Assembly (NCBI RefSeq): GCF_003012815.1
Contig: NZ_PXYJ01000001.1
Coordinates: 248,001-312,000, forward strand
Length of the DNA: 64,000 nt
Direction: 5' to 3'
Source of the DNA: Allosphingosinicella vermicomposti
GTDB taxonomy: Bacteria > Pseudomonadota > Alphaproteobacteria > Sphingomonadales > Sphingomonadaceae
Below the pieces are notes generated by a model. The model saw only the letters and a list, made by a program, of their open reading frames with translations, was not told the DNA's origin and searched no databases. Below are positions 36,371 to 45,998 of the stretch, in pieces. Every line of letters begins with the position of its first letter. Positions within the stretch are counted from its first letter, which is position 1. Position numbers and translations under genes: made by a program.

Positions 36371-36637
36371 CTAATCGGCCTGTTTGCGGTTCTTGAGCGC
36401 GATCGCGGTGATGATCACGATGAAGGCGGTGAGACGGATGAGATAGAAGAAGCTGGATTCCTCTACCGGGAAATCGGTGAGCGCGAGGAGGGCCTGGGTC
36501 AGTCCGAGTAGCCAGAAGGCGATAGCGAAGGCGAGAAACAGCCCGTCGCTCGATCTGCGCCAGAAGCGCAGGAAGAACGTGCCGCCCGCGAGGAAGCCCA
36601 TTGTGATCATTCCGGAAAGGAAAGTGAAGAGCGTCAT
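36371..36637 (-). CDS. Small membrane protein, DUF5985-like (second of pair)
   Basis: 88 residues from ATG 36637, which shares one base with the stop of the upstream gene; the frame is open further upstream but the coupled start fits better. Three hydrophobic segments: TFLSGMITMGFLAGGTFFLRFW, LFLAFAIAFWLLGLTQALLAL and FFYLIRLTAFIVIITAIAL, with a basic loop after the first. This matches small DUF5985 inner-membrane proteins. Function unknown; it is next to a large kinase operon on the other strand. Confidence 0.7.
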   Translation of the reverse strand: MTLFTFLSGMITMGFLAGGTFFLRFWRRSSDGLFLAFAIAFWLLGLTQALLALTDFPVEESSFFYLIRLTAFIVIITAIALKNRKQAD

Positions 36638-36915
36638 CAGCTCCACTCCTCCATATCCCAGATGAGGCCGCCGACGAGAACGCCGACCGCCGCGAGCGAC
36701 AGCAGGAGGCGCGGCATCTGCAGGCTTATCGACTGGATGATGAACATATCGAGGATCACGGCCAAGGCGTTCAGCGCAAGGAAGCCGAAGCACAAGCCCG
36801 TCCAGAGGAGCAGGCGCGCACCGCTCTGCCGGAAGCTGCGCCATAGAAGGAAGGCGCACGTACCGGCCGTGCCGAGACAGAGAAGATAGACGAGGGCGCG
36901 GAATATCTCTGACAT
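36637..36915 (-). CDS. Small membrane protein, DUF5985-like (first of pair)
   Basis: 92 residues with three predicted membrane helices (ALVYLLCLGTAGTCAFLLW, LLLWTGLCFGFLALNALAVILDMF, and LLLSLAAVGVLVGGLIWDM) separated by short basic loops (RSFRQSGARL). The layout parallels the adjacent protein, suggesting an old duplication and a hetero-oligomer. AGGAGG lies 11 nt before the ATG. It is 4 bp downstream of the winged-helix-like gene, so three genes form one operon. Confidence 0.7.
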   Translation of the reverse strand: MSEIFRALVYLLCLGTAGTCAFLLWRSFRQSGARLLLWTGLCFGFLALNALAVILDMFIIQSISLQMPRLLLSLAAVGVLVGGLIWDMEEWS

Positions 36916-36919
36916 ATTC

Positions 36920-37303
36920 TCAATCCCTCCTAAGCTTGAACGCGTCCGAAAAAGCGCGGAGCTGATCGTGCGCGGCCATCACGATTTCCCTGCGGACGGC
37001 ATCTGGCTTTCTTCCGTAGTAAAGCTCAGCCTCTCCCGCCAGGCGATCGATTTCGCCGGATGCCGGAGCATAACGTATCTGTCCATCCTGATCCGTCACC
37101 ATTCCGGCAGTCACGAGGGATTCGATCCCCTGCGCCACCACCGAATCGCTGCCGCGAAGTGCGCCTACGAGTTCCGGCCGCGTCCAGGCGCGGTTCCGAT
37201 CAGCCCGCAGCAGAAGCATCAGCTCCATCGACCAGATGGAACGGAACGATCCTCTTATAAAGGCTAGAAGGTCCGCGCTTGCCGGCATCGTCCCCGAAAT
37301 CAT
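36920..37303 (-). CDS. Probable winged-helix protein
   Basis: 127 residues from ATG 37303; an in-frame TTG at 37333 and ATG at 37288 are alternatives, none with a good ribosome-binding site. The sequence has a helix (FRSIWSMELMLLLRADRNRAW), a helix-turn-helix-like TRPELVGALRGSDSVVAQGIESLVTAGMV, a wing (TDQDGQIRYAP) and a C-terminal helical part. This topology resembles small wHTH regulators. It leads the DUF5985 pair and diverges from the poly-HAMP kinase gene, so it could regulate either. Confidence 0.6.
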   Translation of the reverse strand: MISGTMPASADLLAFIRGSFRSIWSMELMLLLRADRNRAWTRPELVGALRGSDSVVAQGIESLVTAGMVTDQDGQIRYAPASGEIDRLAGEAELYYGRKPDAVRREIVMAAHDQLRAFSDAFKLRRD

Positions 37304-37486: not shown

Positions 37487-40400
37487 GTGAACGCCGAAAC
37501 CCGAGTCGAAAGCTTCGATCGCCGACAGCTGCTGGCAGCGCTTCGCGCATTCCGGCGCGGCGATTTTTCGGTACGCCTCCCCGAAGACGCCGCTGGCACG
37601 GACGGCGAGATTGCCAGCCTGTTCAACGAAATCGTCGGCCTGAACGACCAGATGGTCGGCGAATTCCGCCGCTTGTCGCAAGTCGTCGGCAAGGAAGGCA
37701 AGATGCTGCAGCGCGGCCATCTGAAGGATGGCAACGGGAATTGGGACAGCGCGGTCCAGTCGGTGAACGAACTGATCGAAGATCTCGTCCAGCCGACCGC
37801 CGAAGTGTCGCGCGTCATCGGCGCGGTGGCGAAGGGCGACCTGTCGCAGACCATGTCCGTCGAAATTGACGGACGCCCGTTGCGCGGCGAATTCCTGCGC
37901 ATCGGCAAGGTCGTGAACACCATGGTGGAACAGCTTGCCTCCTTCGCATCCGAAGTGACGCGCGTGGCGCGCGAAGTGGGTACGGAAGGCAAGCTTGGCG
38001 GCCAGGCGAATGTGAAGGGCGTCGCCGGCACGTGGAAGGATTTGACCGACAATGTGAACGCGATGGCGGGCAATCTGACCGCGCAGGTGCGTAACATCGC
38101 CGACGTGACTACCGCCGTGGCAAAGGGCGACCTTTCCAAGAAAATCACCGTGGACGTGAAGGGCGAGATTCTCGAACTCAAGAACACCATCAACACGATG
38201 GTGGACCAGCTTAATGGTTTCGCATCGGAAGTGACGCGCGTGGCCCGCGAAGTGGGCACCGAAGGGCGCCTCGGCGGGCAGGCGCAGGTTCCGGGCGTCG
38301 CGGGCACCTGGGCCGATTTGACCGACAATGTGAATTTGATGGCCGCGAACCTGACCGGTCAGGTGCGTAACATCGCTGACGTGACGACTGCGGTGGCGAA
38401 AGGCGATTTGTCCAAGAAGATCACCGTGGAGGTGAAGGGCGAAATCCTGGAGCTCAAGGACACCATCAACGTCATGGTGGACCAATTGAACTCCTTCGCG
38501 TCCGAAGTGACCCGCGTGGCGCGCGAAGTGGGTACGGAAGGGAAATTGGGCGGTCAGGCGCAGGTGCCGGGCGTCGGCGGCACGTGGAAGGATCTGACCG
38601 ACAATGTGAATTTGATGGCCGATAACCTCACCGGCCAGGTGCGTAACATCGCCGAAGTGACGACCGCCGTGGCATCAGGCGATTTGTCCAAGAAGATCAC
38701 CGTGGACGTGAAGGGCGAAATCCTGGAGCTCAAAAACACCATCAATACCATGGTGGATCAGCTGAATGGCTTCGCATCGGAAGTGACGCGCGTGGCGCGT
38801 GAGGTGGGGACCGAAGGGAAGCTCGGCGGGCAGGCGCAGGTGCCGGGCGTCGCGGGCACCTGGGCCGACCTCACCGACAATGTGAATTTGATGGCCGCGA
38901 ACCTGACGGGCCAGGTGCGCAACATCGCCGAAGTGACGACCGCCGTGGCGAAGGGCGACCTTTCCAAGAAGATCACCGTGGACGTGAAGGGCGAAATCCT
39001 GGAGCTGAAAAACACCATCAACGTCATGGTGGATCAATTGAATGGCTTCGCATCCGAAGTGACCCGCGTGGCGCGCGAAGTGGGCACCGAGGGGCGCCTC
39101 GGCGGACAGGCGCAGGTGGAGGGTGTCGCGGGCACATGGGCCGACCTTACCGACAATGTGAACGCCATGGCCGGCAACCTGACCAGCCAGGTGCGCAACA
39201 TCGCCGAAGTCACCACCGCCGTGGCGCGCGGCGATCTTTCCAAGAAGATCACCGTGGAGGTGAAGGGCGAAATCCTGGAGCTTAAAAACACCATCAACGT
39301 CATGGTGGATCAGCTCAACGGCTTTGCGTCGGAAGTGACCCGCGTGGCCCGCGAAGTGGGCACCGAAGGGCGCCTCGGCGGACAGGCGCAGGTAGAGGGC
39401 GTTGCGGGTACGTGGAAGGATCTGACCGATAACGTGAACGCCATGGCTGCAAACCTCACCGGCCAGGTGCGCAACATCGCCGAAGTGACGACCGCGGTGG
39501 CATCGGGCGACTTGTCCAAGAAGATCACCGTGGACGTGAAGGGCGAAATCCTGGAGCTCAAGAACACCATCAACGTCATGGTGGATCAGCTCAATGGCTT
39601 CGCATCCGAAGTGACCCGTGTGGCGCGTGAAGTGGGTACGGAAGGCAAGCTCGGTGGACGTGCGCAAGTGCGCGGCGTCGCGGGCACGTGGAAGGATTTG
39701 ACCGACAATGTGAACCTGATGGCCGACAATCTGACTGGCCAGGTGCGCAACATCGCCGAAGTGACGACCGCCGTGGCGCGCGGCGACCTTTCCAAAAAGA
39801 TCACCGTCGACGTGCGTGGGGAAATCCTGGAGCTCAAAGACACAATCAACGTCATGGTCGATCAGCTCAACTCCTTCGCATCCGAGGTGACCCGCGTGGC
39901 GCGCGAAGTGGGGACCGAAGGGCGCCTCGGCGGCCAGGCGCAGGTGCCGGGCGTCGGCGGCACGTGGAAGGATTTGACCGACAACGTGAACCTGATGGCG
40001 AACAACCTCACCAATCAGGTGCGCGGCATCGCGGATGTTGTGACGGCGGTGGCGCAGGGCAATTTGAAGCGCAAGCTGACCGTGGACGCGAAGGGCGAAA
40101 TCGCGGCGCTGGCCGAAACGATCAACTTCATGATCGATACGCTCTCGACCTTCGGCGATCAGGTGACGAACATGGCGCGCGAAGTGGGTATCGAAGGGCG
40201 CCTTGGCGGCCAGGCCTCCGTTCCGGGCGCCGCAGGCTTGTGGCGCGACCTCACCGACAACGTGAACCAGCTTGCCGCGAACCTAACGAACCAGGTGCGC
40301 TCCATCGCCGACGTGGCGACCGCCGTGACGAAGGGCGATCTTTCGCGCTCAATCGCCGTGGAAGCGTCGGGCGAAATGGCCGCGCTCAAGGACAATATCA

Positions 40401-43174
40401 ACGAGATGATCCGCAACCTCAAGGAACAGACCTTGAAGAATGCGGAGCAGGATTGGCTTAAGACCAACCTCGCGCGGTTCAGCCGCATGTTGCAGGGCGA
40501 ACGCGATCTCGCGACCGTGTCGAATCTCATCATCTCCGAACTCGCGCCGCTGGTGAACGCGCAATATGGCGTCTTCTATGTCGCCAAGCGCGACGGCGAC
40601 GAAACCGTGCTGGAACTTGCCGCCAGCTATGGCGCCGAGCGGATCGATGAACTGAAGCCCGTCTTCCGCCTGCGCGAAGGCCTGATCGGTCAGGCGGCGG
40701 CGGACAAGCGCAGCATCCTGCTCAACGAAGTGCCTGCCGACTTCATCCGCATCGGATCGGGGCTCGGGCATAGCGCGCCGGTCAACGTCAACATCATGCC
40801 CGCCATCTTCGAAGATGACGTGAAGGCGGTGATCGAACTCGCCTCATTCGGCAAGTTTAACGAGACCCACGTCTCCTTCCTCGACCAGTTGATGGAATCG
40901 GTGGGTATCGTTCTGAACACCATCGCGGCGACGATGCGCACCGAAGGCCTGCTCAGCCAGTCGCAGCTGCTCACCACCGAGCTTCAGGCGCGTCAGACCG
41001 AGCTTACGACCAAGCAGGAAGAGCTGCACGCGACGAACGAGGAGCTGCAGGAAAAGGCCCTGCTTCTCGAATATGAAAAGAAGCAGGTGGAGGGCAAGAA
41101 TATCGAAATCGACATGGCGCGCCGGGCCATCGAGGAAAAGGCCGAACAGCTTGCGCTGACGTCGAAATACAAGTCCGAATTCCTCGCCAACATGTCGCAT
41201 GAATTGCGGACGCCGCTCAATTCTCTCCTCATCCTCTCGAAGCTGCTCGCGGACAATCCGCAGGGCAATTTGAACGAGAAGCAGACGGAATTCGCACGTA
41301 CGATCAATGCGGCGGGGTCCGACCTTCTCAACCTCATCAACGACATTCTCGATCTGTCGAAGATCGAATCCGGCACGGTGTCGATCGATCTCGGCGAAGT
41401 GCCGCTGAAGGTATTGAAGCAGAATGTCGAACGCACCTTCCGTCAGCTTGCGGCCGACAAGGGGCTGATGTTCGAGGTTGCGTTCGACGAGCGCCTGCCG
41501 CTCGTCATGCGCACGGACGAAAAGCGCCTGCAGCAGGTCGTTCTGAACCTTTTGTCAAACGCCTTCAAATTTACGTCGCAAGGATCCGTGACTTTGTCAG
41601 CCGCGCGCGTGCAGAGCGGGTGGAGCGCGGATCATCCGGTGCTGAATGGCGCGGAAGGAGTCATCGCCTTCACCGTGTCCGATACGGGGATCGGCATTCC
41701 CGAAGACAAGCAGAAGCTGATCTTCGAAGCGTTCCAGCAGGCCGACGGCACGACCAGCCGGCGCTATGGCGGCACCGGCCTTGGCCTATCCATCAGCCGC
41801 GAGATCGCTCGGCTGCTGGGCGGTGAATTGCAGGTGCAGTCCACGCCGGGCAAGGGGTCGACCTTCACCTTGTTCGTGCCGCAAAATTCGGTCAGCGGCG
41901 CCGCGCTTGGCGCGACCGCGAGCGAGGATCATGTGCCGATGCTGAGCGCACCAGCCGCCGCCGAAGAAGTGGCGGACGATCGTGACGGCCTCGGCGACGA
42001 TCCGTTCGTGCTGATCGTCGAGGATGATGCGACCTTCGCCAACATCCTTCTCGAACTGGCGCACGAAGCGGGTCTGAAGGGCGTTGTATCGGCGGCGGGC
42101 GCGGGGACATTGGGCATGGCGCGCAAGCTCCAGCCCGATGCGATCACGCTCGACCTTGGCCTTGCCGATATTGACGGCTTCGTGCTGCTCGACCTGTTGA
42201 AGCACGATCCCGACACCCGGCATATCCCGATCCACGTCATTTCCGGCAAGGAAGAGGTTGCTTCCGCCATGGCGCTCGGCGCGGTCGGCGTTACCGAAAA
42301 GCCGGCGACACATGACGAACTGGTTGTGGTGTTCGGCGATCTTTACCGGCGCGTCAGCCGCGTCGAGCGGCAGGTGCTGATGGTGGGCTTCGACGCGAAG
42401 GGGCGGAAGGCGGCGGCCAAGGCGGTCGGCGATCCCGCCATGCGCTATGACGCGGCTCCAACCCTGTCGGACGCACCCCGCGATTTTGGCGATTATGACG
42501 CGATCCTCCTTCCCGTGGCGAAGGTTGCAGGCGAGGCCGAGCGGATATGCGCGCAGGCTCCAGCGGCTCCGCTCATCGTGCTTGGCGGCGGCGAGGACGA
42601 TCCGGATGCGCGCGGTGCGATCAATCGCGTGGCGTCGTCGTGCAACATCCAGATTGCATCAGGCTTGGACCAGCTTGCGACACTGTTGCCGGCAACGCTG
42701 CGCCGGGGACGGCGGCCCGCAGCGGCAGAGGATGCGCATCGCGGCGTGCCGGAAATCAAGGGCGCGAAAATCCTCGTCGTCGATGACGACATCCGGAACA
42801 TCTACTCGCTTACAAGCGTCTTGGAGACTTACGACGCGACCGTCCTCTACGCCGAACGGGGGAAAGAGGGCATCGCAATCCTTGAAAACACGCCGGATAT
42901 CGACATCGCGCTGATTGACATCATGATGCCTGAAATGGACGGATATGAAACGATGCGGCAGATCCGCACGCGCGATGCGCTGGCCAACGTGCCGCTTATC
43001 GCCGTGACCGCCAAGGCGATGAAGGGCGACCGGCAGAAGTGCCTCGATGCGGGGGCGTCCGATTATATCGCCAAGCCGGTCGACATCGATCTGCTGCTGG
43101 CCCTGCTCCGCGTGTGGATCGGCCGCGCGCGTTCACAGGAAGGATCGTCGCCTGCGATGGTGAGCGCGGACTAA
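37487..43174 (+). CDS. Cytoplasmic poly-HAMP hybrid histidine kinase (Nik1/Os-1-like)
   Basis: 1895 residues from GTG 37487, nine bases after AGGAG; no signal peptide or membrane segment. Order: short N-terminal HAMP-like unit (about 20-113); unit 1 of 97 residues (114-210); eight 92-residue HAMP units (211-946); a final HAMP; a GAF domain (about 989-1150); a coiled coil; HisKA with [15 protein letters not shown] (His1238); HATPase_c ([25 protein letters not shown]); receiver 1 (Asp1556 in TLDLGLAD); a degenerate receiver-like segment (about 1625-1745); and receiver 2 (Asp1811 in [11 protein letters not shown]). Poly-HAMP kinases without membrane anchors are known from fungal group III osmosensors. 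No Hpt domain is present. The next hybrid kinase starts 5 bp later. Confidence 0.92.
38117..40324 (+). repeat. Eight tandem 276-bp HAMP-coding repeats
   Basis: Units start at 38117, 38393, 38669, 38945, 39221, 39497, 39773 and 40049, each at the codon for Val of VA(K/S/R/Q)G(D/N)L. Spacing is exactly 276 bp with no insertions. Units 2-8 of the protein are near-identical (GDLSKKITV(D/E)VKGEILELK..), while the last (40049) is clearly diverged ([20 protein letters not shown]). Variation concentrates at a few sites (K/S/R before GDL; N/D in LK(N/D)TIN; PG/EG/RG after AQV). DNA identity is high enough to permit recombination between units. Confidence 0.93.
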
Positions 43175-43179
43175 TTTCC

Positions 43180-45252
43180 ATGGTGGAACCGACACCCCTG
43201 CGCAAAGCCGCCGCGCCGCAATTCGCGCCTCTTGCCGAAGGCAGGCCGCGCGTGCTGATTGTCGATGATGACGAGCGCAACCTGCTTGCGCTCAAGACGG
43301 TGGTCGATGAAGTCGCGGATACCGTCGTCGCTTCGTCGGGCGAAGAGGCGTTGCGCCACCTGCTGAATGGCGAATTCGCGGTCATCCTTCTCGACGTTTT
43401 CATGCCTGGCCTCGACGGTTACGAAACCGCGCAGATGATCCGCAGCCGCGAGCAGACCAAGCGTATCCCGATCATCTTCCTGTCCGCGGTGAACAAGGAA
43501 AGTGCGCATTTGAACCGCGGCTATGCGATGGGCGCGGTCGATTATGTGTTCAAGCCGGTCGAGCCCCTCGTCCTGCGATCCAAAGTGTCGGTGTTCGTTG
43601 ATCTCTTCGCCAAGACGCGCGAAATTCAGCACAAGGCCGAGCAGGAGCAAAGGCTGCTGGACGAAAATCTTCGCATTCAGGCCGAAAAGCTGCGTGCCGA
43701 GCAGGCGCTGCGCGATGCGGAGAAGAGGCAGGCTGCAATCATCGAGTCCCTGCCCATCGTCCTGTTCGTGCGCGAATTCGGACCTGATTTCACGACGCCC
43801 CGGATCGTCGGCGGCAATCTGGCGCGGATCAGCGGCTTCGAAACGCCGCCGCCGGTGGAGGAATGGCACCAGCGCCTTCATGCCGACGATCGCGCGCGGG
43901 TCATGTCCGGCTATCGCAGCCTGGAATACCAAAACGGCCTGGCGATCGAATATCGCTGGCAATGCGCGGATGGAGCCTACCGGCACTTCCTGGAACAGAC
44001 GATGGTGCTGGCTGACGAATATGGCGGGCGCGAAGTGGTCGGCACATTGCTGGACGTCACCGAACGCCGCGAGCTCGAAAGCCAGCTGGTCCAGGCCCAG
44101 AAGCTTGATGCCATCGGCAAATTGACCGGCGGCATCGCGCACGATTTCAACAATCTTCTTGCCGCCGTTTTGGGCGGGATCGACCTTATCGACCGGCGCG
44201 TGGCGCTGGCGGAGGACCAACGCAAGATTCTGACGATGACACGGCGCGCGGCCGAACAAGGATCCGACCTTGTCCGGCGCCTGCTCGCCTTTTCGCGGCG
44301 CCAGCAATTGCAGCCCGCGCCGGTTTCGGTGGCCCAATTGTCGACGGCCGTCGGCGACCTTCTCAACCATACGCTCGGCGGTCTGGTCGAACTGGATTGG
44401 TCGATTGCCAGCCAGCCGTGGAACGTCTTTGCTGATGAAGCCCAGCTAGAGCTGGCGCTGATGAACCTCGTCATCAATGCGCGCGACGCGATGCCTGACG
44501 GCGGCCGGATCGAGGTTCATGCGCGCAATAAGGTCTTGGAGGCCGGCAACGAACATGATCTGCCGGAAGGCGATTATGTCAGCCTGACCGTGATTGACAC
44601 AGGATCGGGTATCGCGCCCGATGACCTTGAACGAGTGATGGAGCCATTCTTCACAACCAAGGAAGTGGGCAAGGGGACGGGCCTTGGCCTTTCCATGGTT
44701 TACGGTTTTGCCAAGCAATCGGGCGGCGGCATACGGATCCAGAGCCGGGTTGGCGAGGGCACCAGCGTCGAGCTCCTGCTGCCAAGGGCTGCTTCGGACG
44801 CTGCCGCGACGGAAACCGCATCACGCCAGCGGGTTGAGCCTGTCGACACCGGCCCCGGATTGCGCGTGCTGCTGATCGATGATCATGCCGGGGTCCGGAC
44901 GACGACGACAGCCTTGTTGAGCGACTTCGGTCATCAGGTGGCGGAGGCATCGGACGGGCTGGAGGCGATCGCGGCGATGTCCGCCGACACGCATTGCTGC
45001 GACCTTGTCATCACCGATTATGCCATGCCGTCGCTCTCGGGGATCGAGGTGGTGCGCCGCTTGCGCGAATTGCGGCCAGACCTGCCCGCCATCATCATCA
45101 CCGGTTATGCGGACGCGGACAATATCCAGAACCGTCCGGCAAATGTTACGGTGCTGACGAAGCCCTTCACGCCGGAAAAGCTGACTGCGGCAATAAGGCG
45201 CGCCGTTCCGCGCGAAATGGAAATGGATCAGGCGCTTCCAAGCGCGGTCTGA
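43180..45252 (+). CDS. Hybrid histidine kinase REC-PAS-HisKA-HATPase-REC
   Basis: 690 residues from ATG 43180, five bases after the previous stop; the frame is open further upstream inside that gene but the family start fits here. Order: receiver (about 23-140; LIVDDDERN, Asp72 in [11 protein letters not shown], Lys in VFKPVEP); coiled coil (150-190); PAS (about 190-300); HisKA of the HDFNN type ([11 protein letters not shown], His321); HATPase_c ([27 protein letters not shown]); receiver (Asp613 in [12 protein letters not shown]). No membrane segment. The front receiver could accept phosphate from, or be paired with, the poly-HAMP kinase. The 3' end overlaps the convergent LytTR gene by 25 bp. 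Confidence 0.9.
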
Positions 45253-45998
45253 ACATTTTCGGCATATTTTGATGCCACGTCTACGATCGCCCCATCCTCG
45301 GTATGAAGGCGAACGATCCGGCGCCCTGAAAAATCGGCCTGGACGACGATGTCCGGCCGCACGAACGCGGCGCGATGGACCCGAAGCATTGGTTGAGATT
45401 GAAGGCGGCTTTCCAGCTCCTTCATGGTGATCTTCAGGATATAGGTGTGGGCTTCGGTATAGAATAACGCGTAATCGCGTGCCGCCTCGATCCGCCGGAT
45501 ATCCCCCACGGGCAGCGGCACCGTGCCGTCGCCCTTCGGAATCCAGAAAATCGGATCGCCCGAACGGCCTTCCGCGCTCGCGCCGTTTGCCGCCTCGGCT
45601 GGCAGATTCGCGTCACCCGCTTCCCCCTGGCGCTGCTCCAGGCGCAGCTGCGCGCGCTTCAACGCCTCGCGCAGCCGGTCCGGCTGGACGGGCTTCAGCA
45701 AATAATCGACCGCCTGCATGTTGAATGCTTCGATCGCGAATTCATCGAGGGCGGTGATGAAGATCATCTCCGTCTCGGCACGCTTCGACAAGGACCGCCC
45801 AACTTCGATCCCGCTGAAATAGGGCATTTCGATATCGAGAAGGATCAGATCGGGTTTCAGCGTTTCGGCCAGATCGAGCGCCACGCGGCCATCCTCGGCC
45901 ATGCCGACAATCTCGATGCCTTTGATCGTTTCCAGCGCATGGACAAGGCGCTGGAGAGCCGGCGGCTCGTCATCGACCAATAGCACCCTGAGCGTCAT
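45228..45998 (-). CDS. LytTR-family response regulator
   Basis: 256 residues: receiver domain (residues 3-120; VLLVDDEPPA, Asp55 in LLDIEMPYFSG, Lys in YLLKPVQPDRL), an Ala/Gly/Glu linker, and a C-terminal LytTR DNA-binding domain (about 155-255; IRRIEAARDYALFYTEAHTYILKITMKELESRL, FVRPDIVV). LytTR regulators bind direct repeats and usually pair with LytS-type kinases, as here: the kinase gene ends 102 bp upstream on the same strand. Its 3' end overlaps the convergent hybrid kinase gene. Confidence 0.92.
   Translation of the reverse strand: MTLRVLLVDDEPPALQRLVHALETIKGIEIVGMAEDGRVALDLAETLKPDLILLDIEMPYFSGIEVGRSLSKRAETEMIFITALDEFAIEAFNMQAVDYLLKPVQPDRLREALKRAQLRLEQRQGEAGDANLPAEAANGASAEGRSGDPIFWIPKGDGTVPLPVGDIRRIEAARDYALFYTEAHTYILKITMKELESRLQSQPMLRVHRAAFVRPDIVVQADFSGRRIVRLHTEDGAIVDVASKYAENVQTALGSA

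Follow-up and report, generated by a model that had tools for sequence, protein, structure and literature searches.

A cytoplasmic poly-HAMP hybrid kinase of Allosphingosinicella vermicomposti and its association with a partner kinase and a DUF5985 gene trio

The window, by which we mean the whole 64,000-nucleotide stretch of Allosphingosinicella vermicomposti DNA that was analysed, contains a gene for a hybrid histidine kinase with a long array of HAMP repeats, a second hybrid kinase gene directly downstream on the same strand, and, divergent and upstream, a trio of small genes, two of which encode DUF5985 proteins. The original prediction for this DNA concerned the poly-HAMP kinase and had missed both the operon partner and the DUF5985 trio. 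The features are given below, the starts of the three trio genes (WH, TMA and TMB) having been chosen from open frames.

36371..36637, minus strand: TMB (DUF5985 protein B), 88 aa with three hydrophobic segments; start overlapping the TMA stop
36637..36915, minus strand: TMA (DUF5985 protein A), 92 aa with three hydrophobic segments (Pfam DUF5985)
36920..37303, minus strand: WH, a 127-aa protein, winged-helix-like by look only; first gene of the divergent trio
37487..43174, plus strand: poly-HAMP hybrid histidine kinase, 1,895 aa, GTG start
37487..37942, plus strand: N-terminal cap, aa 1-152, divergent; Pfam recognises one HAMP at ~aa 100-150
37943..39874, plus strand: 92-aa HAMP units 1-7, apparently homogenised (repeat analysis and comparison with locus L127)
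39875..40426, plus strand: terminal HAMP units 8 and 9, position-conserved
40499..40915, plus strand: GAF domain (Pfam)
41171..41374, plus strand: HisKA, H-box SHELRTP, intact by eye (Pfam)
41513..41884, plus strand: HATPase (Pfam)
42005..42346, plus strand: receiver 1, phospho-Asp retained (Pfam and alignment)
42371..42691, plus strand: degenerate middle receiver, phospho-Asp gone, predicted fold retained (alignment and structure model)
42770..43108, plus strand: receiver 3, phospho-Asp retained (Pfam and alignment)
43180..45252, plus strand: partner hybrid kinase, 690 aa from the chosen ATG, with REC, linker, PAS_3, HisKA, HATPase and REC

The kinase frame at 37487-43174 is genuine, and GTG 37487 is preferred over GTG 37469 as its start because AGGAG sits just ahead of the former. 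From the N-terminus, the protein consists of the cap, nine clean 92-aa HAMP units, GAF, HisKA, HATPase and a series of three receivers, the middle one dead, having lost its phospho-acceptor Asp. C-terminal to the array, Pfam recognises GAF_2 (2.3e-16), HisKA, HATPase_c and two Response_reg domains, and the catalytic motifs are intact by eye. Pfam, together with an alignment of the acceptor Asp positions, bears out the original prediction of GAF, HisKA, HATPase and two good receivers with a degenerate one between them. The further claim that the protein is soluble agrees with our finding of no membrane segment in the poly-HAMP kinase, where the highest 19-residue hydropathy mean is 1.52 and lies within receiver 1. 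Among the best 25 NCBIfam families listed for each kinase (poly-HAMP and partner), none reached its cut-off.

The array is built on a 276-bp repeat (8.7 copies, 82% match, score 2662 by TRF), which is not chance: residues agree at 661/1000 positions when the sequence is shifted by 92, against 41-67 at shifts of 90, 91 and 93. The nine clean units span aa 153-980, after the divergent cap. A profile check matched Pfam HAMP (PF00672) in 10 stretches (4.8e-97), confirming that the repeats are HAMPs, and HAMP_2 (PF18947) likewise matches in 10. Taken together, the two families recognise one HAMP per unit, on its second half, and one more in the cap. Each unit is one recognised HAMP and one half that is invisible to Pfam. 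In the fungal kinase CaNik1, the 92-aa unit has been described as a HAMP pair (PMC3848655), and by that analogy the array would hold about 21 HAMPs in total. A profile comparison of the two halves of the unit gave a probability of 7.8%, short of confirming a pair, and a structure model of units 8-9 with GAF and DHp was weak (mean pLDDT 70.8, pTM 0.42). Two solved chains, PDB 9TRJ and 9TRK ("histidine kinase, Gcn4p"), match the window array with E values of 2.3e-42 and 2.6e-92, respectively, and the cap resembles the start of 9TRK by eye in the printed alignment. Both chains are fusion fragments, in contrast to the full-length window kinase, and a literature search found no paper on either.

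When the array is compared with that of L127, a locus of the same genus, units 1-7 have nucleotide identities of 0.80-0.88 across positions and between counterparts alike, while units 8 and 9 are 0.87 and 0.90 identical to their own counterparts and 0.66-0.75 identical to other units. This pattern suggests to us that copying has homogenised the middle of the array and that the terminal pair is fixed in position. Over the stretch from the final two units to HisKA, 54 other loci are 61-89% identical to the window. Counting one match in the cap, 9 of the 12 gene-complete Sphingomonadales loci have 10 units and the other 3 have 8; across the 58 poly-HAMP loci of the named set, the counts span 1 (in cut contigs) to 15, and arrays of 10 and of 12 units account for 9 and 12 loci, respectively. 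An unusually long array in the window was therefore rejected, and with it the notion that the array is special for being about twice as long as its fungal counterpart. Arrays longer than that of NIK1 have in any case been published for the bacterial "group III" kinases AskA, AskB and Amb07 (PMC7643160) and, with more than ten HAMPs, for OsaA (PMC9739842), and array length at AskB is already reported to differ between two Myxococcus species (PMC4603909).

Three matched receivers occur in 52 of the 58 poly-HAMP loci of the named set. The acceptor Asp is kept at receiver 1 in 58/58 rows and at receiver 3 in 57/57 ungapped rows; at receiver 2 it is found in 44/58 rows, with gaps in 2/58, and the window has Pro there. 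In the window, L127, two Mesorhizobium loci and L044, the spacing between receivers 1 and 3 is kept and the match to the middle receiver is lost, and the other sphingomonads examined (L128-L137, L011 and L014) have only ~30-55 residues between receivers 1 and 3. All three receivers have a receiver-like alternation of strands and helices in a structure model with a mean pLDDT of 90. Judged by alignment and model, the middle receiver is a decayed remnant of a three-receiver form, with no phosphorylation site here. The original prediction had raised the question of what this third receiver-like segment might add; its acceptor Asp replaced by Pro, it offers no phosphorylation site for an added function, and a new functional domain was rejected in favour of a decayed receiver on the lost Asp, the predicted receiver fold and the three-receiver relatives taken together.

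A scan with the kinase half returned at least 585 related stretches from many phyla, hybrid kinases in general included. Array units are visible, within the stretch examined, in 58 of the best 80 of these, which are the nearest by sequence and thus a biased sample. An array match at E<=1e-20 was found in 13/196 genomes of a draw from the order, 16/289 from the class, 20/299 from the phylum and 90/174 from Myxococcota. Of 72,556 plasmid records, 304 show DNA similarity to at least part of the kinase gene, and in 13 the match covers 80% or more of its length. Phyla are intermixed in the kinase tree, which includes Hyalangium and two other Myxococcota loci, and G670, a genome of another class, sits among the sphingomonads. 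The locus in question (L140) has kinase, partner and trio, shares 83% identity with the window across the N-terminal 346 aa, and is either a transfer or a misplaced contig. In another genome (G741, locus L192), the poly-HAMP gene occupies two open frames (581 and 1,409 aa) with the trio adjoining, the split being due either to a broken gene or to an assembly error. Soluble poly-HAMP hybrid kinases are common and already described in bacteria, and are not a bacterial oddity. The proposed likeness to Nik1/Os-1 holds in principle but not as a rarity, given the published bacterial examples and the frequency of the array among the nearest relatives.

Fungal group III kinases (Nik1/Os-1, TcsC, Bos1), whose output is HOG, have a single receiver and are not known to have a GAF between the array and HisKA, and the window kinase differs from them in its GAF_2 domain and its two matched receivers. 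What it shares with them is a soluble hybrid kinase architecture and 92-aa repeats, the fungal repeats being described as HAMP pairs and CaNik1 as having nine HAMPs (PMC3848655). By description, AskA/AskB with AskC and Sorangium Amb07 are also alike, as soluble hybrid kinases in which several receivers accompany a long poly-HAMP region; the available text of that report makes no mention of a DUF5985 trio for the Ask proteins or Amb07, and it places the Ask role in the response to ambruticin and glycerol and in development (PMC7643160). OsaA of S. coelicolor, again by description, is a 1,829-aa hybrid kinase that has no TM helix, shares the long HAMP array and has an adjacent receiver protein. 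This neighbour, OsaB, is a receiver with a coiled-coil effector and no kinase, unlike the window partner, and the pair is linked to osmoadaptation (PMC9739842).

The chosen ATG of the partner lies ~5 bp past the poly-HAMP stop, with no CheR or CheB gene between the two kinases. A REC-first hybrid kinase gene is found directly 3' in 12 of 13 Sphingomonadales loci (the window and L127-L137) and is absent in L138, a short contig. In the named set, 56 poly-HAMP loci leave 1.5 kb of room; a REC-first gene lies directly 3' in 42 of them, a generous figure in that it takes in some genes (L018, L033, L082) that are short frames or, probably, a broken-off end of the kinase itself, and a HATPase is present in 36. 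Where the same kinase core has no HAMP units in view, the REC-first gene is directly 3' in 7 of 18 loci. The M. xanthus arrangement is similar: askC, encoding a further hybrid kinase, lies immediately 3' of askB, the Ask proteins are reported to bind each other, and AskA Rec3 contacts the AskC receiver in a two-hybrid assay (PMC7643160).

Other signalling genes are found beside these kinases. CheR and CheB lie between the two kinases in Hyalangium and in the Myxococcota genome locus L220, and not in L227. Stand-alone CheR genes, some with CheB, are directly 3' of kinases in L016, L022, L026, L031, L034, L036, L072, L077, L079, L088 and others, and the kinases so followed include ones with and ones without HAMP arrays; methylation-based adaptation of non-chemoreceptor kinases is possible. 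Upstream, L127 has a 256-aa receiver gene, L026 and L037 likewise have a receiver-matched gene, and L034 has a REC-GGDEF-EAL gene (L034:6062-7960) directly ahead of its poly-HAMP kinase, which suggests a c-di-GMP output at that locus. In the window, a REC-LytTR response regulator gene (45228-45998, minus strand) is convergent with the partner kinase; it was rejected as a member of the system, as no receiver gene lies there in 12 relatives.

The two DUF5985 proteins of the window match PF19447 at 83.9 and 76.7 bits, against a cut-off of 27.3. WH has no Pfam or NCBIfam match, and none of the three trio proteins has an NCBIfam name. In 42 aligned TMA proteins, Cys10, Asp53 and Arg66 are each kept in 42/42 and Cys17 in 40/42 (numbering of that analysis). 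Window TMB gave no match when compared with phages, and the literature searched held no paper mentioning DUF5985. On the Sphingobium plasmid pTomTYG65a (L230 13073-14554), a gene annotated KaiC lies near a DUF5985 pair.

Presence of DUF5985 above its cut-off was compared with an array match at E<=1e-20 in draws that had the same size and handles for both searches. Array-positive genomes make up 9/9 of the DUF5985-positive genomes in the order draw (Fisher p 7e-13), 9/10 in the class draw (3e-12), 6/6 in the phylum draw (4e-8) and 64/65 in the Myxococcota draw (5e-25), against the overall frequencies given above, although these values overstate independence because genomes within a draw are related. 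With each genome counted once, 85 of 87 DUF5985-positive genomes in the four draws, from two phyla, are array-positive; the exceptions, G466 (280 contigs) and G800, have the trio and no array match. This count leaves out the genomes with sub-cut-off DUF5985 matches (1, 3, 5 and 2 per draw, 9 distinct), among which only G470 is array-positive, and with them included the figure is 86/96. At the G470 locus (L195), a DUF5985 fragment below the cut-off is all that lies beside an intact kinase and is perhaps a remnant of trio loss. The converse of the association fails: DUF5985 above the cut-off is present in 85 and missing from 50 of 135 distinct array-positive genomes, and it is missing from 36 of the 50 named poly-HAMP genomes, the remaining 14 being Pseudomonadota, Hyalangium (Myxococcota) and a MAG named Micavibrio. 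The trio is thus optional.

Trio genes fall within the fetched stretch in 17 of 75 poly-HAMP loci, and none was found in the 22 kinase-core loci of the same sample that have no HAMP units. In the Myxococcota draw, the trio is linked to the array in at least 38 of the 65 DUF5985-positive genomes, and in G911 of that draw it was found linked to the kinase. Unlinked trios, defined by no array within the fetched ~9 kb or more on each side and with gene order read from stop-to-stop frames, keep their gene set in G208, G166, G710 and G576 (L181-L184) and in the Myxococcota loci L217-L219 and L223-L226. Only 5 of 72,556 plasmid records match TMA, and a kinase is nearby in all five, as judged by annotation in four and by match positions only in A. 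thermophilum. On the Novosphingobium plasmid pNL2, the kinase, the partner, a 125-aa protein and two DUF5985 genes all run in one direction; across loci, the trio may be divergent upstream, co-oriented downstream or upstream, or convergent. In a quick kinase tree (85 rows, 24 with a linked trio), linkage must have been gained or lost at least 8 times to fit the well-supported branches. Co-inheritance of the trio holds in two phyla, including genomes where trio and array are unlinked. The kinase belongs to a module with the partner kinase and the DUF5985 trio, and this association is the new point of the analysis.

Our preferred reading, to which we give a probability of about 0.6, is that this poly-HAMP hybrid kinase is cytoplasmic, belongs in kind with the Ask proteins, and serves as the principal kinase of a module of five genes, with functional coupling to the DUF5985 trio. 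Starting from the observed anatomy, operon partner and co-inheritance, phosphotransfer, its direction, physical contact and the stimulus can be put together in the following proposal. A dimeric rod of stacked HAMPs would hold the GAF-DHp-CA core in one of two signalling states, and a stimulus at the array or GAF would flip the state of the kinase. Removal of all HAMPs from CaNik1 is reported to activate Hog1 in yeast transformants (PMC3848655), which points to an array that restrains or sets the kinase. After the switch, the kinase would phosphorylate its own receivers and, directly or via them, pass phosphate to the neighbouring REC-PAS-kinase-REC partner at its N-terminal receiver, and this partner would carry the output. 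The WH-DUF5985-DUF5985 operon would most likely be a membrane-side input or adaptor and less likely a regulated output; our preference for input comes from the lack of any membrane segment in the kinase itself, set against the two membrane proteins that the trio would supply. A wider form of this proposal, plausible but tentative, is that the soluble poly-HAMP kinases of many Pseudomonadota and Myxococcota are not free sensors, and that a membrane complex in which two three-helix DUF5985 proteins join the winged-helix-like protein feeds the HAMP rod in place of the missing transmembrane sensor, for example with membrane state or with redox via the near-invariant TM Cys pair.

Co-inheritance is compatible with the trio as input or as output, and output is the main alternative. 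In that case, the kinase pair would control the expression of the two small membrane proteins through the winged-helix-like protein. In the window, as in several relatives, the trio is transcribed divergently next to the kinase, an arrangement common for regulated targets, and unlinked trios could be regulated in trans; yet the position and orientation of the trio vary relative to the kinase, and we hold this alternative to be a minority prospect. Of similar standing, and likewise doubtful, is a stand-alone cytoplasmic osmosensor like fungal Nik1, in which the array would sense internal solutes or crowding and the trio would be a target operon or a hitch-hiker. The unit length of 92 aa is that of CaNik1 (PMC3848655), Streptomyces OsaA/OsaB are tied to osmoadaptation (PMC9739842), and the 36 named poly-HAMP genomes that have no DUF5985 fit such a sensor. 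However, AskA/AskB are reported to act in development and chemically induced sporulation (PMC7643160), and no EcfG-like stress promoter motif was found near the kinase gene, the one match elsewhere in the window being no more than chance. The unlinked co-occurrence of trio and array in two phyla also argues against hitch-hiking.

It is improbable that DUF5985 and the array go together only through common ancestry and genome size, functionally unconnected. The compared genomes are related and most DUF5985-positive Myxococcota genomes are at least 8 Mb, so that in this phylum genome size or clade could lie behind both DUF5985 and the array, but the 85/87 figure extends across many families and two phyla, linkage changed repeatedly on the kinase tree, the kinase-core loci with no HAMP units have no trio gene, and every TMA-matching plasmid has a kinase nearby. 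Least probable is a DNA-binding array that would make the kinase nucleoid- or promoter-bound, for although AskB bound the mrpC promoter in vitro, HTH-like matches over HAMPs have been pointed out (PMC7643160) and the window array matches SpoIIID at 27.5 bits against a cut-off of 27 (HTH_6, 21.8 against 28.3), these matches overlap HAMP helices, unrelated families score as well or better (GatB_Yqey, 34.1 bits against 27), and FrzCD, the other cited case, is reported to bind DNA via a bZIP-like domain with its HAMPs only modulating (PMC12077210).

Coupling of the kinase to the DUF5985 trio would bear on a standing question, namely what stimulates soluble poly-HAMP kinases in fungi, where they are the targets of fludioxonil, and in bacteria. 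The co-inherited membrane trio offers a specific candidate, open to deletion, for the input that is missing, or else for the output; DUF5985 gains a first functional context, and the association hints at a way in which a soluble sensor might be linked to the membrane. Since named plasmids carry the module, as do several Pseudomonadota and Myxococcota, the proposal is testable in tractable strains.

The window genome has a second locus (L139 5273-11158) with a GAF-HisKA-HATPase kinase bearing three receivers, then CheR, a REC-PAS-HWE kinase and a PilZ gene. To our knowledge, CfcA of P. putida has no poly-HAMP array. The CfcABCDE cluster is like the window module in being headed by a hybrid kinase and in including a REC protein, CfcD, and unlike it in that CfcB and CfcC are of the CheR/CheB type and CfcA feeds the diguanylate cyclase CfcR (PMC4951495). 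With a layout like that of cfcABCDE, the L139 locus is probably a CfcA relative.
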